From the NCBI GenBank assembly GCA_021740915.1, contig JAIOYW010000007.1:62001-126000 (forward strand): a stretch of DNA of 64,000 nt, in the 5' to 3' direction. The stretch comes from Ignavibacteriales bacterium (GTDB taxonomy: Bacteria > Bacteroidota > Ignavibacteria > Ignavibacteriales > Melioribacteraceae). Shown here piece after piece: positions 41,821-56,005 of this stretch. Numbering within the stretch: position 1 is the first letter of the stretch; each line of letters begins with the position of its first letter. Made by a program: the position numbers and the translations under genes. The notes beneath the pieces were generated by a model. That model worked only from the letters and a program-made list of their open reading frames with translations, had not been told where the DNA came from and did not search any database.

Positions 41821-42901
41821 TTTATTGCTTACAAGCGCCGGAAGCCGCTCTATTGAAGGTGTGCTGGACTGCCTGGCTCCGGTGAGGGACAGTATTAACT
41901 GTATCGGGACTAATTCCCATCCTGAATTTGTCAGTCTGAAATATCTGGATTCCGCTTTTATCGTTCCTGAAACTTCTTCTGCCGGGCAGTTCAAGGAGAG
42001 AATAAACAATATATTATCTGAAGTGAAGCCCGATCTTATTATTAACGGGCGCGATGAAGAGCTGCCGCTTCTGGCTGAAATTGTAAATGAGAGCGAACTC
42101 GCCGGCACATTCCCCGCAACTAACATGGCATCGGTTTATGGCGATAAATATAAAACATACCGGTTTTGCCTTCAGAATGGGCTGCCTTTTGTTCAAACTG
42201 CCTTTACCGAAACTGAGGTAAAGCAATTACTGAGCGAAAAAGGATTCCCGCTTATTGCAAAGCCCCGATGGAATGGTCACGCAAGCAAAGATGTTTTTGT
42301 GATCTTTGAGGAGAATGATCTTTTAACGCTTATCTCAAAAACCGGTTATGTTTTTCAGCCTTTTGCCGCAGCGCCCGAACTGAAGCAGAAATACAGAGAC
42401 TTACGATATAATAAAGGCGTCCCATTATTAATGAACCCGGTTAATGAGTACTATAATATCGATCTGCTTCTTGATAAGAACGGAAAAGAGTTAAAACGCT
42501 GTATCACCCGTGCACAGAGAGCAGGGAGCATAATTAAGCAGATGTGGCTCTCGGACGATGCTTTTATGCACGGAATTGCGGATAAATGTTCGGCAGTTCT
42601 TGAAAAAGCGGGGCATCACGGTCCTCTGAATATTCAGGGCTACTTAAACGGAAATTCTTTTGATGTTTTTGAGTGGAATGCGCGGTTTGTCGGCAGTGTT
42701 TATGGTTTCGCGCTTCTTGGTAAAAACCTCGTGCTCGACTGGCTCAAATCAAACGTCTCCGGAATTGAAGCCTCTCGAGGACTGCATTCTCCGCCCGGAA
42801 AAGTATTCCGTCCGATGCGCTACCAGCTCGTTCCGCAAGAATTAATCGAAAGGCTGAGGAGGGAAGGGATAGTTTGTCAAGTTGAAAGTTTATCAAGTTG
42901 A
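41804..42901 (+). CDS. ATP-grasp ligase, carbamoyl-phosphate-synthase-like
   Basis: 365 aa from the ATG at 41804 (GGGAG upstream); an ATG at 41786 is the alternative. The N-terminal pre-ATP-grasp domain is MKRKINLLLTSAGSR, the ATP-grasp core has FPLIAKPRWNGHASKDVF, and the catalytic end is LNIQGYLNG...VFEWNARF. It probably joins an acid and an amine with ATP. It overlaps the CitE-like gene by 17 nt. The last ~10 residues and the stop lie inside a 16-bp tandem repeat, so the C-terminus is likely variable. Confidence 0.82.
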   Translation: MKRKINLLLTSAGSRSIEGVLDCLAPVRDSINCIGTNSHPEFVSLKYLDSAFIVPETSSAGQFKERINNILSEVKPDLIINGRDEELPLLAEIVNESELAGTFPATNMASVYGDKYKTYRFCLQNGLPFVQTAFTETEVKQLLSEKGFPLIAKPRWNGHASKDVFVIFEENDLLTLISKTGYVFQPFAAAPELKQKYRDLRYNKGVPLLMNPVNEYYNIDLLLDKNGKELKRCITRAQRAGSIIKQMWLSDDAFMHGIADKCSAVLEKAGHHGPLNIQGYLNGNSFDVFEWNARFVGSVYGFALLGKNLVLDWLKSNVSGIEASRGLHSPPGKVFRPMRYQLVPQELIERLRREGIVCQVESLSS

Positions 42902-43100
42902 AAGTTTATCAAGTTGAAAGTTTATCAAGTGGGAAGTTTATCAAGTTGAAAGTTTGTCAAGTGGGAAGTTTATCAAGTGGGAAGTTTGTCAAGTGGGAAG
43001 TTTGTCAAGTGGAAAGTTTATCAAGTGGAAAGTTTATCAAGTGGAAAGTTTATCAAGTGGAAAGTTTATCAAGTGGAAAGTTTATCAAGTTGGAAAGTTT
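42871..43100. repeat. 16-bp tandem repeat, 14 copies
   Basis: Units of about AGTTTATCAAGTTGAA start every 16 bp from 42871 to 43079, with TTGAA, TGGGA and TGGAA variants; a 17-bp step ends the array at ~43096. The first copies encode the end of the ATP-grasp gene. Sequence variants are grouped along the array, as expected from slippage or unequal crossing-over. Confidence 0.9.
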
Positions 43101-43172
43101 GGCAGGAATGAGGTTTTTGGATCGGTTGTTTAAACGATGTATTTTAATATAAATGATGATCAGGTTATTTGA

Positions 43173-43876: not shown

Positions 43877-44116
43877 TCAATCTGAAGAATTTTCCACGGC
43901 AAAGGATATTGTTCCGCCATAGATCAGAGTCATGATAAAATCTTCCAATGCATCACCAGTAAAACAATCCTCACCGCCGAATGCTTTGATCCTCGAATTC
44001 ATATCGTCCTTAAACGCAATCATACAGCCTCTTTCAGCAAGTTTTACCAAAACGTCCACCGGTAAACCGGATTCCTCCGAAAGCTCTGAAAATACCGCCG
44101 TCATTTTTTCAGTCAT
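43877..44116 (-). CDS. small hypothetical protein
   Basis: 79 aa, not recognised; acidic, with three Cys/Met-rich positions and an amphipathic helix pattern. The start is supported by AAGGTGAT just upstream of the ATG at 44116. It lies in the accessory segment beside the CRISPR array; no function is assigned. Confidence 0.5.
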   Translation of the reverse strand: MTEKMTAVFSELSEESGLPVDVLVKLAERGCMIAFKDDMNSRIKAFGGEDCFTGDALEDFIMTLIYGGTISFAVENSSD

Positions 44117-44415
44117 ATCATCACCTTCAGTAAGTTATCAATCATTTTTTTGCTCACCCGTGATTTTTTCAATACCGGGCAGCCACCGAATGCAATATTA
44201 AAAAAGTTACCTGTGCGATAAGTATCATCAAATGATATTATTTTGCGGCGGGATAACATTCTTAAAAGTAATGTCAGTTTTAAATTAGCGGCAGAGGAAT
44301 ATGAGCGGCTTAATGAAGAATGGAGCAGTTTTTCTTTTCACTTCAAATTGATTTTTATTTTAGGTTTTATGATTTTTGAATAGAAAATATCCTCAATTAT
44401 ATAAAGAGGCTTAAC
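44117..44415. other. intergenic beside CRISPR array, with palindrome and ORF remnant
   Basis: Contains a degenerate copy of the palindrome found upstream of cas3 (44221-44239) and a 46-codon frame from a TTG at 44243 to a stop at 44383 (NVSFKLAAEEYERLNEEW). That frame looks like a ribbon-helix-helix or mobilisation-protein fragment but is not convincing as a gene. AGAGG before 44416 serves the next gene. Confidence 0.4.
44221..44239. promoter_or_regulatory. degenerate copy of the cas-upstream palindrome
   Basis: AGTATCATCAAATGATATT matches the perfect palindrome at 55934-55952 at 16 of 19 positions in the same 9-1-9 register. It is followed by ATTTT, as in CRISPR spacer 46937-46969. The regulator, if any, is unknown. 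Confidence 0.4.
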
Positions 44416-44832: not shown

Positions 44833-47362
44833 GTTTCATCCCCACGTGCGTGGGGAAAATCCGCGTGGGTTTCAGGGTTAATCCTCCCAAGGTGGCTTCA
44901 TCCCCACGTGCGTGGGGAAAATCCCTTCCCATTGAGCCGCAACTATATCATTTTTCGGTTCATCCCCACGTGCGTGGGGACAATATGCCATTTAAGCAAA
45001 CACCTCTATGGGTAAACCGGTTCATCCCCACGTGCGTGGGGACAATGTCCCGGTTTCATTTGATGCAAGTTCCCAAACGGGTTCATCCCCACGTGCGTGG
45101 GGACAATGTCCCGGTTTCATTTGATGCAAGTTCCCAAACGGGTTCATCCCCACGTGCGTGGGGACAATATCTGATCAAGTTCGGCTGATAAATCAGTTTC
45201 CGGTTCATCCCCACGTGCGTGGGGACAATTATCAGATAACCAAATATCCGCAATAAATAAACGGTTCATCCCCACGTGCGTGGGGACAATGTTAACCCGG
45301 AAGGAAAAACAAACAAGCCTTCGGTTCATCCCCACGTGCGTGGGGACAATTAATCCGCTAATTTGCAATCCAGGATTTTTTTCGGTTCATCCCCACGTGC
45401 GTGGGGACAATTTTGCAGCCTCGAAATATCGTTTTTGAATCGCCGGTTCATCCCCACGTGCGTGGGGACAATTCAGCGACCTTAGTTCATCGCCCCGCAG
45501 TGATCGGTTCATCCCCACGTGCGTGGGGACAATCTATAGCTCATAGTATAGTGAAAGATCTCTGTCGGTTCATCCCCACGTGCGTGGGGACAATATGTCT
45601 GGGTTCATTTTGCAATTGGCGCATTTCGGTTCATCCCCACGTGCGTGGGGACAATGCTTACTTTCCCGAGTACCGTGCCCTTTGTAAGGGTTCATCCCCA
45701 CGTGCGTGGGGACAATTCAATTATGTAAATCCTGCGCCGGGTTTCTCTCGGTTCATCCCCACGTGCGTGGGGACAATCCGTTTTATCGGCATCTCGCTGC
45801 CGCTTTCCCCGGTTCATCCCCACGTGCGTGGGGACAATAGTTGACGGGTAAAGGGTTTTAGTTCCGTGGACGGTTCATCCCCACGTGCGTGGGGACAATC
45901 GTCCAGTACGACCACCGTTTTTCATTTACCTCGGTTCATCCCCACGTGCGTGGGGACAATTCTGCAATCCGGAAACGATATTGAATAATGCCCGGTTCAT
46001 CCCCACGTGCGTGGGGACAATGTTCAGATCACAGCCTAATTCCTTTAGCTTAACGGTTCATCCCCACGTGCGTGGGGACAATTCCCGTTCTAATTCACGT
46101 ATGGCTCGTTCCGCCGGTTCATCCCCACGTGCGTGGGGACAATAACCCGCATAATTCGGCGATGTGCTTGAGAGTCGGTTCATCCCCACGTGCGTGGGGA
46201 CAATTTTTCGTGATGATTTTCTTTTTGTCAGTAACACGGTTCATCCCCACGTGCGTGGGGACAATTGCGGGGAAAAGTATTTTTTTGCGAGTGTCGGCGG
46301 TTCATCCCCACGTGCGTGGGGACAATGTTTTTTAATTTCTTGATTTCTATCAGCGTGGCGGTTCATCCCCACGTGCGTGGGGACAATAATTAAACCTGTG
46401 GTAAGTGTTTTGTTCGGGTCGGTTCATCCCCACGTGCGTGGGGACAATTTATACAGGTGATGTTGCATTGGCTTCTTATACGGTTCATCCCCACGTGCGT
46501 GGGGACAATTCTGGCATAACACCAGAGAGTATTAGTGCAGCCGGTTCATCCCCACGTGCGTGGGGACAATTGCGTTAAAATAATTTACAACGGCTAACTC
46601 TACGGTTCATCCCCACGTGCGTGGGGACAATGCCGTAACTGGTTCGCAACATTTTTTGATGCGCGGTTCATCCCCACGTGCGTGGGGACAATAACAATAG
46701 TACACAACGGGTGATACGGTGCAACGGTTCATCCCCACGTGCGTGGGGACAATGACGGCTCGCACGTTCCCACCAGCCGGGACAGCGGTTCATCCCCACG
46801 TGCGTGGGGACAATCCTGAAATTAATGGGATCGGGAGGGACATCTTCGGTTCATCCCCACGTGCGTGGGGACAATAACTCCTTAATTTATTTGTGTAAAA
46901 ATGATTACGGTTCATCCCCACGTGCGTGGGGACAATTAGTATCATTCAATGATACTATTTTCTCATTTCGGTTCATCCCCACGTGCGTGGGGACAATTGT
47001 GATGTGAAAATTCCGCTTCACTCCGTTGACGGTTCATCCCCACGTGCGTGGGGACAATTGTTTTCTGCGTTTATCAATCTCCCGTTTGTCCGGTTCATCC
47101 CCACGTGCGTGGGGACAATTTCCGGATTTCTGTAGCGAGCTGATTCCAAAACGGTTCATCCCCACGTGCGTGGGGACAATTATTTGATAAGCCAAAGTCA
47201 AATAGGAATACCGGTTCATCCCCACGTGCGTGGGGACAATTGAAGGATTTTGATATACTTGGTTTTTCCTCTTAGGTTCATCCCCACGTGCGTGGGGACA
47301 ATTTATTTAACAGTGAGGCTAATGCCGGGCGATCGGTTCATCCCCACGTGCGTGGGGACAAT
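44833..47362 (-). CRISPR. type I-E CRISPR array, 42 repeats and 41 spacers
   Basis: The 28-bp repeat is spaced at 60-62 bp. On the minus strand it reads ATTGTCCCC...GGGGATGAACC plus a usual terminal G, the type I-E form with a GC-rich hairpin for Cas6e. Repeats start at 44833, 44895, 44957, 45019, 45080 and so on, to 47335. The two repeats at the low-coordinate end are degenerate (GGGGAAAAT, and GT or GC for the first GG), marking the trailer, so the array is read from cas2 towards 44833. Spacers are 32-34 bp; 45047-45079 and 45108-45140 are identical. Spacer 46937-46969 matches the cas upstream region. Confidence 0.98.
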
Positions 47363-47374
47363 ACTAAGGAAACA

Positions 47375-47653
47375 TTAAGAAAAAAGTGTTTTCACAAAAG
47401 AAACACCCTCCAAATCTACGATGACTTTACCTGTATTTCCAAACTGTCTCATATTAAATCCTTGCTCGTTATTTGAGTGATAGATCTGCCACATCCCGCC
47501 TTTTTTAATTTTTTGCCCGCATAACTCCCATAACTGATCTCGGACTAATGCAGATACCGAACCAATAAATATTCCGGATTTAATTTCAATAAGCCACCGG
47601 CTTAGTTCTCCTCTTAAAGAAGGCGGCACTGTTTCAAGAATCATCACAAGCAT
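47375..47653 (-). CDS. cas2: CRISPR-associated Cas2, type I-E
   Basis: 92 aa. With Cas1 it forms the integrase that inserts new spacers. It has the subtype E features LRGELSRWLIEI, GIFIGSVSALVRDQLWE and a VIVDLEGVSFV end, close in layout to E. coli Cas2. It starts inside the end of cas1 (10-nt overlap). The stop lies only 12 nt from the first repeat, so the array leader must overlap this gene. Confidence 0.95.
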   Translation of the reverse strand: MLVMILETVPPSLRGELSRWLIEIKSGIFIGSVSALVRDQLWELCGQKIKKGGMWQIYHSNNEQGFNMRQFGNTGKVIVDLEGVSFVKTLFS

Positions 47654-48564
47654 AAGATTTTTGCCTCAACTTCTGGAGATGGGTCCCAATAACCAGAGGG
47701 CAATGCCGGATCAGCATCATAATCACTTTCAAGCGGCTCATCCACCTTAAGAAGCTTATCAATATCTTCAACAATCCTTTGCAGCAGTTTTGATTCGCGA
47801 AATCTTTCGCGCATTTTTAATCTGACCTCTCTTTCTAGATTCTCCGAGTTTGCTGCTACAGCTTCAAAGGCTGCGTAAATACTATGTTCGACTTTGTATA
47901 AATCAGCTATATCATAAACAAAGGATAATTGCTTACCAGTGTGTATAAAGCCGAGAGCAGGAGAATAGCCAGTCGAAACAATAGCAGCATGAGTAATACC
48001 ATACAGACAGGAATTTGCCGATGATAATGCTCTGTTTATTGGCTCAGTTTCGAACCAGTTTTTCCGGTCATAATTTCTGCCGCTCCAGGCAACTCCAAAA
48101 GCTTTGCTAAATTCTGTATAAGCCTGGCGAACTCTTATTCCCTCTTTCCCCCTTATCTGCCTAAGATTTAAACCTTTAGGCAGCGGATCAGGAAATCTCA
48201 TTTCGTACATTTTAACAACCACCTGAAGACGAGTCTCAGGATTTGCCCATGCAGCGACCTGCCTGAGTAATCTGGCGGATTTTTTCGTTTCTCCGGTTCC
48301 TGCCGCGTAGGTTCTAACGCCTTGCTCCCCTGTCCAGAGTAGTGTGCAACCATTTTCAGCAGTAATTTTTACTGCGTCATGTGAAATGCTAGTTCCCGGA
48401 CCAAGAAGCAGCGCAGATACAGATGCCACTGGAAGTTGTATAATCCCGTCGGCATCTGTAATTTTAAGTGCCTGCATGTCCTTGTCTATTTTGGCATGTT
48501 CAATATATACAAAGCTCATACTGTCCCTTATTTTGGGTAACGCCCTAAGATTCTGAAGGTTCAT
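47644..48564 (-). CDS. cas1: CRISPR-associated Cas1, type I-E
   Basis: 306 aa catalytic subunit of the spacer integrase. Metal-binding residues are seen in IRGKEGIRVR (Glu), LGFIHTGKQLSF (His) and VYDIADLYK (Asp). Length and N-terminal IRDSMSFVYIEHAKID match subtype E. The start overlaps the cas6e stop as ATGA. Confidence 0.96.
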   Translation of the reverse strand: MNLQNLRALPKIRDSMSFVYIEHAKIDKDMQALKITDADGIIQLPVASVSALLLGPGTSISHDAVKITAENGCTLLWTGEQGVRTYAAGTGETKKSARLLRQVAAWANPETRLQVVVKMYEMRFPDPLPKGLNLRQIRGKEGIRVRQAYTEFSKAFGVAWSGRNYDRKNWFETEPINRALSSANSCLYGITHAAIVSTGYSPALGFIHTGKQLSFVYDIADLYKVEHSIYAAFEAVAANSENLEREVRLKMRERFRESKLLQRIVEDIDKLLKVDEPLESDYDADPALPSGYWDPSPEVEAKILCL

Positions 48565-49190
48565 TCTGCTACTGCTGCGACACTTAGTAAACCAAAACCA
48601 AGCCCCTTTCCAGAGCCGATACCGTTTGAAATGGCATCTGCAATCAGAATAGGGTTATTAACTTTCAATTCGCCCTGAAAAAGCACCGAATGAAGATGTG
48701 CTTTGTGCTGCAAAGCTCCATCTTTTATCTTACTAGAAGCCAGCTTTTCCTTTCTTATTTCCAATGTAACTATTTCAAAACCTGCACCTTCAGCTTTGCG
48801 CTCCAACCATTGAATGAGTTGTACTTCATCGTTTATCCCTTTTCTTTTTCTGCTTGCACTTTCTCTCTTAGTTGGATTTGCTCTCAACCTGAAAATAAGT
48901 CTTTGTCCTGCGTGGAATAATGGATTATATTCTTTTATTATTGGACTGCTGTTATTGAAATAATAACTTTCATCCACACTAAGCAATTGCCAGTCAGGTT
49001 TATCGATAGATTGCACAAGTACCGTGGCTTTCCTCGTATCTCCAGGTTCAACTCTAAAAAGTATTCTTCCTGGTATGTTGTCCGTATAATTGTATGCCTT
49101 ACTAAAAGTACGGTGCATTTCATAAGGTGAATTTATCTCTGATAATGCTCTTTTGTTTCTTTTATCCAGGTCAATCCTCGATATGAACAT
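48561..49190 (-). CDS. cas6e: Cas6e (CasE/Cse3) crRNA-processing endoribonuclease
   Basis: 209 aa. It cuts the repeat hairpin and stays on the crRNA 3' end in Cascade. The N-terminus (MFISRIDLDKRNKRA, then YEMHRTFSKAY with the probable catalytic His26) and the glycine-rich GSGKGLGFGLLSV loop near the C-terminus match Cse3. It overlaps the cas5 end by 20 nt, with GAGGAGG upstream of its ATG. Confidence 0.95.
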   Translation of the reverse strand: MFISRIDLDKRNKRALSEINSPYEMHRTFSKAYNYTDNIPGRILFRVEPGDTRKATVLVQSIDKPDWQLLSVDESYYFNNSSPIIKEYNPLFHAGQRLIFRLRANPTKRESASRKRKGINDEVQLIQWLERKAEGAGFEIVTLEIRKEKLASSKIKDGALQHKAHLHSVLFQGELKVNNPILIADAISNGIGSGKGLGFGLLSVAAVAE

Positions 49191-49860
49191 CTCTCGCGCC
49201 CTCCTCTGGTTTAATCGTAATCCATTCGGTAATTACTTTCCGAACAAGATATTCTTTTTTCGCGAAAGAAACGGGAACGTCCTGTCTGAAATCCTGCGAG
49301 GGGCTTTCTTCTCCGGGCTTCGCGTCACGGACAATCCGGAATGTTTCACCCTCATTCCTATTCCTTCTTTCAGGCAGGGGGTAGTTTCTTAGTGCAATTT
49401 CTAATTTAAGATCAACTGGATTTTCTACATTTGGATTTATCAGCGGAGTTGTGGGCAGATAGGATCTTCGTCCCAGAAATTGGGAATAGAAAGGATTAAT
49501 TAGAGCCTCTTTCAGGTCAGCTAACATCTTCATTTCACCCTCAATTCCCGCAATAAATCTTGCATCTGACAGGTAATATCTGTTGATTAACTGTCCGGAA
49601 ATTATTTTCCCCTCTGCATTAATGATAGTTTGGGCAGTCTGGAAATCTTTCTTTATTATTCCTTGTCTGTCCACTCTAACTCCATACCGCAAGCCCGATA
49701 GCTGATTTAATTCAGCATCTCTATTATAACCAAGAGAGGCTGCCAACAGTCCTATTAATCCACTTTTTGTCGGTTCCATCCCTGTATCTTTTTCACTAAA
49801 ACGACTCCGGTAACCCCAGGACTGCATTTGCCCTTCAATTTCAATCAATAAAGTAGGCAT
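49171..49860 (-). CDS. cas5e: Cas5e (CasD) Cascade subunit
   Basis: 229 aa from the ATG at 49860. A TTG at 49866 is in frame, but the strong Shine-Dalgarno site is correctly spaced only for the ATG. Cas5e binds the 5' handle of crRNA in Cascade. LIEIEGQMQSWGYRSRFSEKDT and PTKSGLIGLLAASLGYNRD are the N-terminal ferredoxin-fold hallmarks of the family. Confidence 0.95.
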   Translation of the reverse strand: MPTLLIEIEGQMQSWGYRSRFSEKDTGMEPTKSGLIGLLAASLGYNRDAELNQLSGLRYGVRVDRQGIIKKDFQTAQTIINAEGKIISGQLINRYYLSDARFIAGIEGEMKMLADLKEALINPFYSQFLGRRSYLPTTPLINPNVENPVDLKLEIALRNYPLPERRNRNEGETFRIVRDAKPGEESPSQDFRQDVPVSFAKKEYLVRKVITEWITIKPEEGARDVHIED

Positions 49861-49865
49861 CTTCA

Positions 49866-49877
49866 ATCACCTCCTTA
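49866..49877 (-). promoter_or_regulatory. full-length Shine-Dalgarno site of cas5e
   Basis: The minus strand reads TAAGGAGGTGAT, the complete complement of the usual 16S rRNA 3' end. Its TAA is the stop codon of cas7. It decides the cas5e start at 49860. Confidence 0.8.
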
Positions 49878-50978
49878 TAATTCACTTACTATCTGGCTTA
49901 TAAATTCGTTAAGATCAGCCTTTTTATAATTAATCAATGATGGATAATCTTCTTCCTTCAGGTCAGGGGTAGGAAGTACGAGTACAGCAGCATTTTTTAA
50001 TTTTAAATTGCCCTTGTAAATTGAACTCAGTGAATCCCAGTAATTATTTAACGCCTTAACCGAACTGGCGACAAGTCCATGGCTATTATCTGGTTTGATT
50101 GGTTTTTCGAAAGCATTGGCAAGAGACCAGGGCATATTGTCTTCTCTCACCGTCGCAACTGCAAAAGAAGGCGGATTATATGCGGCGAACGAATTTTGTT
50201 TGCCGGTGGGCATCGCTGTAAATGAAGCTTTGATAAATGCCTTGACTGCCGCCTGCATACCCTCTTTATCATTCTCTAAATTTTCCAACAACCTGTCAGT
50301 ATGAATCACCGAATAGCGGTAAAAACAGGAACTGTTAAATCCTATTGTCCCCATCATTCCGGCGCCAGATGTATCATCTTTCTGCAAATCATCCACTGCT
50401 GTGAAAAAATCAAATTCCATTGAAACCCTGTTCGTTGAGATTGCATGTGCAACCTGACAGGTTCCATCAACATTCCTTTCAGGGTATTCTGCAAGCATCC
50501 TGCCGAAAAGTGCAATATCATAAGAGTATGGTCTGATTTTGAGTTTGCTGATTGCAGTAATAAGATATTTATTGTCCTTTTGTTGCGGATCATAGGTCTG
50601 TATCACTTTTTCGACAATTTTTTCAAGTTCGCTCTCATCAAAAAAAACAAGCACACTCGTTTTATCAGCTTTTTTATCAAATTTGGAGTAATACGCTTCT
50701 ATAATATCTTTTGTAAGATTTTTTATCTCTTCAGGGCTTTTTCCACTAATCTTATCTTCAAGTTTTTCAAATAGTTTTTCACTTACTAATTTGGATCTAT
50801 AACCCGTAAAGGATGGTATGATATTTTGAAAATCCTCTCTAATTGATCTCTTTATGCATTGAGAAGATATCCTCGCTCTTCTGTGTCCGCCGAATTCGCA
50901 GTCTTTTGGCGAGTTTGCGTCATCACGATTAAGATTTGAAGGTGCAACATTCTGTAAAATATGAAGTTCAACTAACAT
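49875..50978 (-). CDS. cas7e: Cas7e (CasC/Cse4) Cascade backbone subunit
   Basis: 367 aa from the ATG at 50978, which has AAGGAG at the right distance and yields the family start MLVELHILQNVAPSNLNRDD. A frame open to 51020 overlaps cse2 and is not used. About six copies coat the crRNA spacer. FGGHRRARISSQCIKRSIRE, GAGMMGTIGFNSSCFYRY and PTGKQNSFAAYNPP are typical Cse4 blocks. Confidence 0.96.
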   Translation of the reverse strand: MLVELHILQNVAPSNLNRDDANSPKDCEFGGHRRARISSQCIKRSIREDFQNIIPSFTGYRSKLVSEKLFEKLEDKISGKSPEEIKNLTKDIIEAYYSKFDKKADKTSVLVFFDESELEKIVEKVIQTYDPQQKDNKYLITAISKLKIRPYSYDIALFGRMLAEYPERNVDGTCQVAHAISTNRVSMEFDFFTAVDDLQKDDTSGAGMMGTIGFNSSCFYRYSVIHTDRLLENLENDKEGMQAAVKAFIKASFTAMPTGKQNSFAAYNPPSFAVATVREDNMPWSLANAFEKPIKPDNSHGLVASSVKALNNYWDSLSSIYKGNLKLKNAAVLVLPTPDLKEEDYPSLINYKKADLNEFISQIVSEL

Positions 50979-50991
50979 TTTAATCTCCTTT

Positions 50992-51501
50992 TTATTCATT
51001 ATTATTTGTTTTTTCATCATTATTTACTTTCTCGAAACGCCAGTAACCCCGTGCCCATTTTTTTTGAACAAATTTTTCAGTACTCCCCCAGTGACGAAGT
51101 GAGTAGAATAATTCATAATAATTGACCGGTATGTTCTCTGAAGCCAGTAACGAGACAGCATTCCTCAGTTGATATGAAAGGTCTTCATCCCGGCATTGAA
51201 GAATGGCGTTGAATCGAAGATCAATGCTTTCAGAACCTTTTACCTGTTTTAATTTCCTGAATGCATCGCCAAAATTTCCATCCTGTGTATTTTCGGGATG
51301 TGTACCGAAAAGTGAGGCGGTGAGGAAATATGGCAACTCATAATCATTCGGTGGAATCCATGGAACAATGTAAACATACTGGGGCGGAAATTCACCGGGT
51401 GAATAGGCAACACCTCTTTTTAGAGCTGCCAATGCCCCTTTGTCATCTTTAATGCTTTGGAGATATTCAATGAATTTTTCTCCGTGTTTTTTTTCTATCA
51501 T
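50992..51501 (-). CDS. cse2: Cse2 (CasB, Cas11e) Cascade small subunit
   Basis: 169 aa from the ATG at 51501 (GAGGA upstream); a longer frame to 51561 lies within cse1. All-helical small subunit that forms the Cascade belly with two copies. LAALKRGVAYSPGEFPPQYVYIV and LRHWGSTEKFVQKKWARGYW match Cse2. The start comes 1 nt after the cse1 stop. Confidence 0.93.
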   Translation of the reverse strand: MIEKKHGEKFIEYLQSIKDDKGALAALKRGVAYSPGEFPPQYVYIVPWIPPNDYELPYFLTASLFGTHPENTQDGNFGDAFRKLKQVKGSESIDLRFNAILQCRDEDLSYQLRNAVSLLASENIPVNYYELFYSLRHWGSTEKFVQKKWARGYWRFEKVNNDEKTNNNE

Positions 51502-51502
51502 T

Positions 51503-52987
51503 TTATTCCTCGTAATGATAATTTGCTTTTGCAATTGCTTTCGGCCCTCTCGGGGAGCCAATTACTGATCCCTCAATTTTTTCTTTACATACGCTGAATA
51601 TCCTGTCACAGGTTATTTTCCAGTTTTCATAAAATAAGTCTTCATTCTCTGGATTTTCAGCGCAACCAAAGACAAATTCTTTGAAAGCATTTTCCAATCC
51701 CCCCCAATAATACCGCTCCACAGAGTAAGAGGCGAGAAGATTCTTTACCTCTTCTTTGTCGGCTTCCTTACCCTCATATTTTATCAATTCTTTTAAAATG
51801 GCAGTAGAATAAGAATAGAGTTTTTTTGAATCTGTCTCAGCGTATTCAATGGCCGAATTACAAAGATTTACAAAATCCTGCTCACCCAATAAACTTAAGG
51901 GCAAAGGAAGTTTATCAAACCTCCATAACAGTATTTTTGCTTTATCGGTAGCAATCCCCCCGCAAAGTATGGTGTAATTCCCTGAAGAAGGAATAACTCC
52001 CTTTTCTTTCAAAATAGCCGCCTGAATAATATTTAATGGTGGTCTGATTTTGCTCCCTGAATCAGTCAGCCGAATGAGGGTATTATAATCCCGCCAAAGT
52101 TGTTTTTCTGTTCTGATTTTTATGGGAACTAGTCCTCTCTTTTCATCTATTCTATACGCGGCGAAAGGGTCAATAGTATTTTCCGGCAATCCTCTTCCCT
52201 GGGCAATACATACTTTTTCGACAACAGTTTTTCCATCATGAACAACAGGTGTTAACTTGATCATCTTTGACTGATGTGTCAGGTAATCCAAATAACCGGT
52301 GAATTGTGTCGCGGTTTCTGCTCTCGAAGGATTAGGACTTTCCCAGGAAGGTTGATCCTGATCGTGAGCAGAAAAACCTGACTCAATAACCATATTAAGT
52401 AATAGCGTTTCAAATAAGTTATTGCCCTCAAGAAACGTGAGCATGGGAGAAGTATAAGGTGCATGTTGAAAATTGATTGTCGCACTAACTCCACCACCCG
52501 GCGAAAAAGTCTGAGCCACAAGTAAATAAAGAGCTGCATCCGCCATTTCCATCTGATCCTTCTTTTCATTATAGGAATGATCATTATAAACGGCATTGTT
52601 TCCCGCTGCTCTGTGCAGAGTCAGTTTATTAACTGTCGTGGTTTTTTCGCCAGCAGGATGCTCTGCTATCTGATAAAACGGAAATACTTCATCAAATAAA
52701 TCAAATCGATCTTTCCATTTTTCAAAATACTCTTCAATTGATGTCGGCGAAAACAGTCCTGCTTTGTAATGATTATTCCATGACTCGACATCCTTAAGCG
52801 GATAAACCCTGTGCAGGATACCGAGCAATAGCCTGAAGAGGCTCATAATCACAAGCGGTGAGTCGTGATAAATGCCGCTTATCTTGTGTGCATCCCTGAT
52901 GCAGTCAAGAAGTCCTATTCTTTCGGGCACCGGTCCGCCCCTTAGTACCGGTATCCATTTTTGATCAATAAGGTTAAATGTACCCAA
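51503..52987 (-). CDS. cse1: Cse1 (CasA, Cas8e) Cascade large subunit
   Basis: 494 aa, the usual length. Recognises the PAM and recruits Cas3. FNLIDQKWIPVLR is the standard N-terminus; QIAEHPAGEKTTTVNKLTLHRAAG (read as two motifs) and SPGGGVSATINFQHAPYTS are conserved Cse1 regions. It follows cas3 by 5 nt and precedes cse2 by 1 nt. Confidence 0.95.
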   Translation of the reverse strand: MGTFNLIDQKWIPVLRGGPVPERIGLLDCIRDAHKISGIYHDSPLVIMSLFRLLLGILHRVYPLKDVESWNNHYKAGLFSPTSIEEYFEKWKDRFDLFDEVFPFYQIAEHPAGEKTTTVNKLTLHRAAGNNAVYNDHSYNEKKDQMEMADAALYLLVAQTFSPGGGVSATINFQHAPYTSPMLTFLEGNNLFETLLLNMVIESGFSAHDQDQPSWESPNPSRAETATQFTGYLDYLTHQSKMIKLTPVVHDGKTVVEKVCIAQGRGLPENTIDPFAAYRIDEKRGLVPIKIRTEKQLWRDYNTLIRLTDSGSKIRPPLNIIQAAILKEKGVIPSSGNYTILCGGIATDKAKILLWRFDKLPLPLSLLGEQDFVNLCNSAIEYAETDSKKLYSYSTAILKELIKYEGKEADKEEVKNLLASYSVERYYWGGLENAFKEFVFGCAENPENEDLFYENWKITCDRIFSVCKEKIEGSVIGSPRGPKAIAKANYHYEE

Positions 52988-52992
52988 TTATT

Positions 52993-55713
52993 TTACTCCT
53001 TATTTATTTTTGAAATGATGATTCCTGAATCGTAATCAAAAATCAACTGATAATTTTCTGCAATATGAATATTGTTCTCAAAAATGACTACTCTTAAATG
53101 TCGTAACAGGCTATTTTTTTTCCAGTTCGCTGGTGGTTTTGTTTCTTCTGAATTCAATAAATACTTTCGAATAGCTCTTGAAGAAATTTGGACAACTGCC
53201 TGCATTATTTTCATTTCAAGGTCTTTTGTAGGCAAAATGTCAGGCTCATATTTCGTTTTACTTTCATCCGCATAATAAAAATCGTCTGTGTTTCTGAGAA
53301 CACAAACCACCCTTACCGCTGGATCACCAAGTCTGGTAGCTGCTTGAATATCTTCGTGTATTTGTGGGTCATCGTCATCAAGCAGGCTAATACCAAAAAA
53401 CAAAGTATCATCTTCATCAGGACCAGGAATTATTCTTGCTGCTACTTTCGATTCCATATCAACACTTTTTTCTATCGACCTTATTTTTAGTCCCTCATAA
53501 AGTTTCTGATCCGGGGCAGTTAAATATGGATGGTTTGTTTCTGAATAAACTTCCTCTATCATATACTCAACACCTTCAGGAATATTTATTTCATTCCTCG
53601 CAGAAAGAGTGAGAAAAGATCGGTACAGAATATATCCATCATATACGCTCTTACTGAAGTTCTTGTTTTCATGATTAAACCAGTATGCCAGGGGCTCATT
53701 AATGCCCGTCTTCCTATCCTCAATTTCAAATCTGCGTAATCGGCCCAAACGTTGAATGAACAGATCAACCGGCGCGAGTTCGGTTATCATCAGGTCGAAA
53801 TCAATATCAAGACTTTGTTCAATTATCTGTGTTGAAAAAAGCACAATTTTTACAGGCCTTTTACCTGTCCTCCCGAAAAGACTTATCACCTTTTCCTCAA
53901 TTTTATTCCTTATATGTGCAGGAAAACGTGCGTGAAGCAAAAAGCATGGAATTTGTTCTTCGCAACTCAATTCTTTAAAAAGTCTATATAATTCCTGTGC
54001 TTTACCGACCGTGTTACATATTACTGCCGTACAGGCTCCCTTATTCGTTTGAGTATAAATAAATTCTATTAAATGCTGATTTTCTTCTGTTTCCACCCTT
54101 GCGATTTTAATTGTTTTTTTTGAGGTTGTGGAAAGAGGGTATGATGAAATACTTTTTCTTGCTGCAAGAGTAAACCTGGGATAGTTTGCCTCCAGTTTGA
54201 GTTCCTCTCCGGTAAATGCTTCCACAAACTTAGTTCTCTTGTTTTTAGGCAGTGTTGCAGAAAGCAGTATCACATTAATATTAATTCTGCCAGCCCATTT
54301 AAGAAAGCCCTCAAGCAAACCAGACATATAAACATCATAAGAATGAACTTCATCCAGTATTATCGTTTTTGCATTTAGTCCGTATAGTCTTAAATAATTA
54401 TGTTTTGTGTTTAGGATACTAATCAGTATCTGATCAATTGTACCAACGGCAAAAGGTGCAAGCAGCCCTCTTTTTTTAGGTCTGAACCAATCATACGATA
54501 TAAGTGTCGATTCCAATTTGACATCATCATCGCCATGAATACCCCTTGTATATCCCGGCTCAGCTTTGCCTTCTAAAAAAAGTTGACTTGCAGAATGGAG
54601 CAATTCAAGGCTTGATGAATATTCATCTGAAAATCTGTTTGATAAAAAGTTACGATACCGCAGAAACATTTGATTTGATGTAGCCCTTGTTGGCATCCCA
54701 ATATACACGCCTGTTTGCTCTGCACATAAGTTCATGTATTCAGATGCGTAAAATGCCATTTCCGTTTTCCCGATACCCATTGGCGCTTCGACAATAAGCA
54801 ATTTGGCATCGCCTGAAGAGTTATCACTCATTAATGCCCTGAATACTTCTGACTGCTGCTCTCTTGGGGTAAATCCTGAAAATAATTGCTCGAATGAAGG
54901 AATTTCACCCTGCGGTCTCCACAGAGGAAAACCACATTTATCTAATGCTATTTTTGCTTTTTGCTTCGCGAGTATCCAGTACTCTTCAGCATTTAATATA
55001 TAACCTTTGTCTCTGCTTACCGCATAAGGAAAATACTCCGGCATCGATGCAATCCAATCAGCAAGTGTTATAAAACCTGTAAACCAGTATTGAAACACAA
55101 TTGGCTTTATCCAGTTATTTAGTTTTATTATTTTTAGATTACTATCACCAATGAGAAGCTTAAATAAATCCCTTGCTATTGAATCCCTCGCCTCTTCCCA
55201 TTTTCCAATACCCATTAATTTGGCAGTATATTTTATTAGATCATGATCGGTAGAAAACTTTCCGTGATGCCCGCCAATTGATTTTGCAATTCTTCCAAGA
55301 TCATTTTTTTCGATCTTTGCTCCTGTCAGCTCTTCAAGTTTGTTTTTTATCCAGAATTCTGAGAAAAAATTATGCCTTTGCTCAGGGGTTTCTATCAAAT
55401 GACTAATGAATTTAAAACCAGATCGTTCAAGTTGGGTTCGCCTTTCCCGATTTTTATTCTGAAATGCCTGACTTGCCTTACCGATATCATGTAATGAAAC
55501 AAGAAAAACAATCAACTCGAGTGCATATGGGGTTATTTCATTTATAAACAAGTTGGCGGCGAATTTTCTTTTTGCAGGTGCCATCCGTTTTGTTAAGAGT
55601 TCTTCCGCGATTGCAGCAATATCAAGTGAATGAAAGAGGAGGGGATGATACGAAAATGAATCGTCATCACTGGTTTTTGCCCATAATAAAAGCTGGTCTG
55701 GAATTTTATTCAT
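52993..55713 (-). CDS. cas3: Cas3 nuclease-helicase, type I-E
   Basis: 906 aa, HD nuclease then SF2 helicase. The HD site is His75-Asp76 (LVSLHDIGKAS), with GGHHGKF further on. Helicase motifs are EAPMGIGKTEMAF (Walker A), ILDEVHSYD (motif II, DEVH), LLSATLPKNKR (III) and QRLGRLRRFE (VI). It degrades DNA unwound by Cascade. No motif is missing, so interference is predicted to be functional. It is first in the cas operon, with a long upstream region shared with acn. Confidence 0.96.
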   Translation of the reverse strand: MNKIPDQLLLWAKTSDDDSFSYHPLLFHSLDIAAIAEELLTKRMAPAKRKFAANLFINEITPYALELIVFLVSLHDIGKASQAFQNKNRERRTQLERSGFKFISHLIETPEQRHNFFSEFWIKNKLEELTGAKIEKNDLGRIAKSIGGHHGKFSTDHDLIKYTAKLMGIGKWEEARDSIARDLFKLLIGDSNLKIIKLNNWIKPIVFQYWFTGFITLADWIASMPEYFPYAVSRDKGYILNAEEYWILAKQKAKIALDKCGFPLWRPQGEIPSFEQLFSGFTPREQQSEVFRALMSDNSSGDAKLLIVEAPMGIGKTEMAFYASEYMNLCAEQTGVYIGMPTRATSNQMFLRYRNFLSNRFSDEYSSSLELLHSASQLFLEGKAEPGYTRGIHGDDDVKLESTLISYDWFRPKKRGLLAPFAVGTIDQILISILNTKHNYLRLYGLNAKTIILDEVHSYDVYMSGLLEGFLKWAGRININVILLSATLPKNKRTKFVEAFTGEELKLEANYPRFTLAARKSISSYPLSTTSKKTIKIARVETEENQHLIEFIYTQTNKGACTAVICNTVGKAQELYRLFKELSCEEQIPCFLLHARFPAHIRNKIEEKVISLFGRTGKRPVKIVLFSTQIIEQSLDIDFDLMITELAPVDLFIQRLGRLRRFEIEDRKTGINEPLAYWFNHENKNFSKSVYDGYILYRSFLTLSARNEINIPEGVEYMIEEVYSETNHPYLTAPDQKLYEGLKIRSIEKSVDMESKVAARIIPGPDEDDTLFFGISLLDDDDPQIHEDIQAATRLGDPAVRVVCVLRNTDDFYYADESKTKYEPDILPTKDLEMKIMQAVVQISSRAIRKYLLNSEETKPPANWKKNSLLRHLRVVIFENNIHIAENYQLIFDYDSGIIISKINKE

Positions 55714-55831: not shown

Positions 55832-55933
55832 TTAGCAAAATCCTGAATAATTATAAAATTTCAAAATTATCATTGTTAAAACCTTATAGTTTAAAGCTTA
55901 TAGCCTTATTATAATATTAAATATTTATAGAAC

Positions 55934-55952
55934 AGTATCATTCAATGATACT
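55934..55952. promoter_or_regulatory. perfect 19-bp palindrome upstream of cas operon (operator-like)
   Basis: AGTATCATTCAATGATACT is a perfect 9-1-9 inverted repeat, 221 bp upstream of cas3 and 225 bp upstream of acn. It looks like a dimeric repressor site. It is repeated exactly inside CRISPR spacer 46937-46969. Confidence 0.6.
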
Positions 55953-56005
55953 AATTTGAAATTTCTGAGTAAATTAATTAAATAAAGATATTATATCCTG
56001 TTATC

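Follow-up and report, generated by a model that had tools for sequence, protein, structure and literature searches.

A palindrome, probably the operator of a WYL-type regulator, is common to a CRISPR spacer and the upstream region of its own cas operon

A spacer that resembles the cas upstream region

In a 64,000-nucleotide stretch of DNA from an Ignavibacteriales bacterium (hereafter the window), one spacer of a CRISPR array closely resembles the DNA upstream of the adjacent cas operon, which raises the question of whether its crRNA regulates that operon or whether the two places are alike for another reason. The array (44833-47362, minus strand) consists of 42 repeats and 41 spacers, the two repeats at its low-coordinate end being degenerate. 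It is followed, all on the minus strand, by cas2 (47375-47653), cas1 (47644-48564), cas6e (48561-49190), cas5 (49171-49866), cas7 (49875-51020), cse2 (50992-51561), cse1 (cas8e; 51503-52987) and cas3 (52993-55713). The eight cas genes are complete and, with repeat-spacer units of about 61 nt, identify the system as type I-E. The spacer of interest (46937-46969) is the seventh of the 41 from the cas2 end, its crRNA is read off the minus strand, and it lies inside a normal array between normal repeats (46909-46936 and 46970-46997, minus strand). Most of the 33-nt spacers (31/34) begin with G in crRNA orientation; two identical neighbours, 45047-45079 and 45108-45140, each carry C instead of G at this repeat-derived first position. 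The gap between the last repeat and the cas2 end is just 12 bases (47362-47375), so that a leader of the usual length would need to overlap cas2. Beyond the other end of the array, short tandem units resembling AAGTTTATCAAGTTGA fill 42885-43110, between the end of a gene and the next ORF.

Aligned without gaps, the spacer is identical to 55933-55965 at 28/33 positions, with an unbroken run of 20 bases that includes AGTATCATTCAATGATACT; this match had been reported in a preliminary description of the locus, and realignment bore it out. For the remaining 40 spacers, the best ungapped match to the window, with the array excluded, is 19-23. The part common to the spacer and the cas site is a 19-bp palindrome, AGTATCATTNAATGATACT, which at three mismatches or fewer gives six hits in the window (three places, each on both strands), compared to 0.07 expected from shuffled sequences. 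The resemblance between the spacer and the cas site is beyond chance.

In crRNA orientation, positions 1-4 match the cas site, 5-7 and 11 mismatch, 12-31 match and 32 mismatches. The PAM position is occupied by CAG, whose G stands opposite the repeat-derived G; the earlier account of these bases was correct in every respect. The palindrome (46938-46956 in the spacer) occupies guide positions 13-31, at the PAM-distal side. Its counterpart at 55934-55952 had been described simply as upstream of cas3, and it does lie 220 bp from that gene, but it is equally near (224 bp) to a divergent aconitase gene, in the middle of the intergenic region between the two, and could act for the aconitase gene. 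As had also been predicted, the guide can fold on itself: the minus strand of the spacer forms an 8-bp hairpin (-6.1 kcal/mol), and when a transcript with two repeats is folded, the two repeats pair and enclose this hairpin.

The preliminary description had raised the possibility that the spacer is an autoregulatory guide, whose crRNA would bring Cascade to the cas promoter, where the mismatches would stop cleavage and Cascade would repress the operon. Degenerate guides of the CreR/CreA type repress cas genes and pair with their targets through the seed, next to a PAM. The guide here is similar in that it also partly matches a site near the cas promoter, with agreement at 28/33 positions, a 20-base block, and pairing of the repeat-derived G and of seed positions 1-4. 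It differs in that three seed positions (5-7) are mismatched, so that it does not pair through the seed as CreR does, and in that the matching block is the PAM-distal palindrome; moreover, the spacer sits mid-array with normal repeats. For E. coli, PMC5904413 describes Cascade binding as resting on PAM and seed, states that as few as five seed bases may be enough where the PAM is AAG, and cites a study in which binding occurred despite extensive mismatches; at sites lacking AAG, binding was weaker, the match continued past position 5, or both. The cas site has CAG and mismatches at positions 5-7. In addition, the matching block is common to other genera: sites there and on a viral contig reach up to 27/33 identity to the spacer through the palindrome alone (L016, L044 and L065). 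We therefore reject the self-guide on the grounds of its seed mismatches and of a likeness explained by a shared regulator site, and regard cas autorepression by this crRNA as very improbable.

The palindrome in this genome and across the class

The core of the palindrome, GTATCAT-N3-ATGATAC (17 bp), has four exact copies in the genome. One is in the spacer, and the other three precede cas3, an ARPP-1 gene (contig C5) and a gene for a 93-aa protein (contig C6). Three further sites have one mismatch, and at two mismatches or fewer there are 25 sites compared to 4 for the reversed pattern, which indicates that some of the two-mismatch sites are due to chance. The sites upstream of cas3, the ARPP-1 gene and the C6 gene share a common extension in gene direction (AATT before and GTT after the core), neither part of which is present exactly in the spacer. 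One of the single-mismatch sites is a diverged third copy in the window (44221-44239, core 44222-44238), about 100 bp upstream of a small gene (43877-44116, minus strand) that encodes 79 aa. This small protein is a paralogue of the 93-aa C6 protein (38% identity over 74 aa) and had no family match in Pfam, PADLOC or NCBIfam. Both paralogues of this family in the genome, 43877-44116 and L004:1582-1863, come after the palindrome, and a gene for a BsuBI/PstI-type endonuclease adjoins the second of them on the opposite strand.

Across the class, the 19-mer was found with at most one mismatch in 33 of 391 genomes, and as a negative control, the reversed sequence was found in none. The loci examined from this search were the first place in each genome (29 new loci), and 20 further stretches were fetched later. 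Among the 15 genomes with Cas3-HD, four have the core at two mismatches or fewer before cas3 and 11 do not, and the reversed control came no closer than four mismatches. The four are this genome, G140 (exact, about 97 bp upstream), G237 (one mismatch) and G042 (two mismatches); the type I-E assignment refers to this genome. The palindrome also precedes Cas8b in a type I-B system (L070, genome G239), Cas6 in L049 (G060), L057 and G353, and recA in five genomes belonging to a single genus (L032, L034, L036, L037 and L154). Other genes that follow it encode a radical-SAM protein, C5 and N4/N6 methylases, a PLD-helicase and SpoVG, and some matches sit inside genes or lack a clear downstream gene. 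On two related Bacteroidetes contigs (L053:3283-3301 and L056:6909-6927) the palindrome carries GGC/GCC extensions and has a run of T after it, and these copies look like intrinsic terminator stems rather than operators.

Most Cas6 loci lack the site. It was absent from 29 of the 30 fetched, G260 being the sole carrier, and from 13 of 14 further loci drawn from genomes in which a WYL-domain protein gene (see below) is present and not adjacent to cas6; the remaining one has it with two mismatches. A role of the palindrome as a general control element of cas genes is ruled out by these counts.

A WYL-domain regulator linked to the palindrome

Several copies of the palindrome have an ARPP-1 gene on one side and the gene of a WYL-domain protein on the other. 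The homologue in this genome (C5:52139-53002, 287 aa) is 4.0 kb from the palindrome upstream of ARPP-1, and its WCX, WYL and HTH_Mga domains all score above the cut-offs, giving it the domain composition of DriD- and PafBC-like proteins. At a threshold of 1e-10, 103 of the 391 genomes contain a homologue, and in 63 of these it is close, defined as E<1e-35. Close homologues are present in 23 of the 33 genomes with the palindrome and absent from 10, compared to presence in 40 of the 358 others (p 3e-13, Fisher's test, phylogeny ignored). Of the 23 genomes with both, 19 have a palindrome no more than 600 bp away from the WYL gene, and three have the two on separate contigs. Within WYL loci, 16/30 contain the 19-mer at three mismatches or fewer, and the reversed pattern never falls below five. 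An untargeted scan of these loci for palindromes ranked the same core first at its spacing (21/30 loci compared to 10 in the shuffled control, for which a single shuffle was made at each of the three spacings).

The linkage extends to the cas genes. All three Cas3-HD genomes with a close WYL homologue have the palindrome before cas3, whereas only one of the 12 without it does (p 0.009, phylogeny ignored). The WYL gene adjoins cas6 in 6 of 22 genomes having both (G049, G086, G251, G260, G283 and G370), and each of these six loci has the core nearby at two mismatches or fewer. In the large cas locus of G086 (L192, C5:168000-186000), cas6 genes flank the WYL gene and the palindrome, and a SpoVG gene comes after the palindrome. 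Palindrome and cas genes are firmly linked in those cas loci that include the WYL gene, and elsewhere the link concerns a minority of loci.

The structure model of the WYL protein (pLDDT 81) is closest in fold to DriD (E 7.9e-13), followed by PafBC, BrxR and CapW, and a profile search likewise placed DriD and PafBC closest. The match to DriD is strong by E-value and modest by TM-score (0.55), at about 15% identity. Taken together, these results suggest that the palindrome is an operator site, probably that of a WYL-type regulator with a DNA-damage-like role. From linkage and homology we infer that the WYL protein would bind it; the sign of regulation and a response to DNA damage are predicted on the same basis.

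Since recA is a classical LexA target, its five operator-bearing copies in one genus could instead mean that another regulator such as LexA binds the palindrome, with the WYL gene as one of its targets, and LexA-family hits are indeed present in 24 of the 26 genomes searched. LexA usually controls its own gene, and among the operator sites listed, a single one is on the same contig as a lexA hit, at a distance of about 141 kb. In addition, G239 and G353 have operators and no LexA hit, and the hits in G283, G167 and G175 are all below the cut-off. The separation of operators from lexA hits and the operator genomes that have no LexA hit disfavour LexA as the binder, and we consider this explanation unlikely.

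The explanation we favour, and consider likely, is that the operator of the WYL regulator is present at both places and that the copy in the spacer is a passenger from foreign DNA. The spacer and the cas promoter would each hold the operator of the DriD/PafBC-like regulator encoded at C5:52139-53002. The site in the cas promoter would be a working operator that makes the cas operon part of a regulon shared with other genes, and the spacer would have been acquired from a phage, a plasmid or another mobile element with the same operator. Computation showed directly that the two places share the palindrome, that it recurs, is linked to the WYL gene and precedes several cas genes, and that the seed has mismatches; the foreign origin of the spacer is presumed. 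Because the seed is unmatched at the chromosomal operator, the crRNA would not regulate cas. With the shared block PAM-distal, host operators would be spared and the seed would be specific to the donor, an arrangement that selection against autoimmunity would be expected to leave. The match to the cas upstream region is real and non-random and has a simple cause, and the spacer itself is most likely an ordinary one.

Origin of the spacer and comparison with known regulators

The search of phages, plasmids and related genomes suggested in the preliminary description returned no full-length protospacer from 164 genomes of the order, from IMG/VR (three patterns) or from phage and plasmid records. 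In IMG/VR, the palindrome pattern retrieved four stretches, the best of which agrees with the spacer at 27/33 through the operator, while AAATGAGAAAATAGTATC retrieved four stretches with 22-23 of 33 and TGAGAAAATAGTATCATT five with 20-23 of 33. In BLAST searches, the spacer had no phage or plasmid hit below E 0.3, and the array (44850-47345) had one phage hit, at E 0.2. These searches thus yielded no PAM, and the donor is a presumed one. The earlier suggestion of a source element with the same operator is the best supported, since the palindrome behaves like a WYL-linked operator of wide occurrence, even though the element itself was not recovered. Candidate mobile DNA does carry operator copies. 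In genome G201, contig C191 (L137) has copies at 341 and 3124 with near-identical flanks, and the interval between the copies includes Phage_tail_S and Phage_Mu_F genes; phage DNA may thus carry the operator here. In a viral contig (L044:804-843), an operator is followed after 5 bases by a second, partial copy, with an ORF start 98 bp away. Given this Mu-like contig and the four IMG/VR stretches, operator-bearing mobile DNA is a plausible source.

The spacer could alternatively have been taken from a host operator site since lost or diverged, as host operators exist for sampling and, the assembly being in 35 contigs, the source stretch could be missing from it. An intact source in the assembly, which the preliminary description had left open, is excluded: across 164 genomes of the order, this one included, the 32-mer was found at three mismatches or fewer solely at the spacer itself. 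The spacer is accordingly not self-targeting by a full-length match at that threshold, its best self match in the window being the 28/33 one. The flanks of the cas site are among the closest to those of the spacer. Outside the operator, the two agree at 9 of 14 bases, the highest value, shared by three contexts, among 116 operator contexts (counted in both orientations and without the spacer; range 1-9 of 14), and the other two are both of the G201 sites. In one orientation or the other, a flank match as good as that of the cas site occurs at about 1.5% of random window positions and, within the AT-rich intergenic region that holds the site, at 11 of 430 positions (the site included), so that the flanks are at best weak evidence that spacer and cas site are specially related. 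Derivation from a lost or diverged host site is improbable.

There is also only a slight chance that the WYL regulator binds spacer 7 in cis, where it would block or tune transcription of the 34 older spacers or be titrated. If it did, a single acquisition would put part of the immune memory under the damage-type signal of the cas operon.

The 17-bp operator and a DriD-like WYL regulator define a predicted regulon that includes some CRISPR-Cas operons (I-E here, Cas8b I-B elsewhere), DNA methylases and recA. That such a regulon joins some cas operons to recA is a prediction that makes a damage response of cas genes in this class directly testable. The locus also carries a warning, in that a spacer may look self-targeting merely through a transcription-factor site that it contains.

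Control of defence operons by WYL proteins is already known for CapW, BrxR and Sll7009, as PMC9122588, PMC9122601 and PMC13373217 report, and a search at the abstract level found no WYL operator common to cas genes and recA in this group. DriD and the actinobacterial PafBC are ssDNA-sensing WYL activators of the DNA-damage response, and the WYL protein here resembles them in its HTH-WYL-WCX build and in its closest fold and profile matches. According to PMC12340889, DriD of Caulobacter binds a 20-bp pseudo-palindrome at several scattered promoters, including those of repair genes; the operator here likewise precedes recA in five genomes. The protein differs from both in sequence (about 15% identity, with a TM-score near 0.5) and in that its predicted targets include cas operons, and ssDNA binding and activation are putative here. 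BrxR and CapW, described in PMC9122601 and PMC9122588 as WYL repressors adjoining phage-defence operons, are similar in combining a WYL regulator, a palindromic site and defence genes. Their fold matches are weaker than that of DriD, and the sites here are scattered over the genome, recA included, instead of being adjacent to the regulator alone. Sll7009 of Synechocystis, a WYL protein that represses a type I-D CRISPR locus according to PMC9122601, also ties a WYL regulator to cas genes; here the system is type I-E and the regulator is encoded outside the cas locus.
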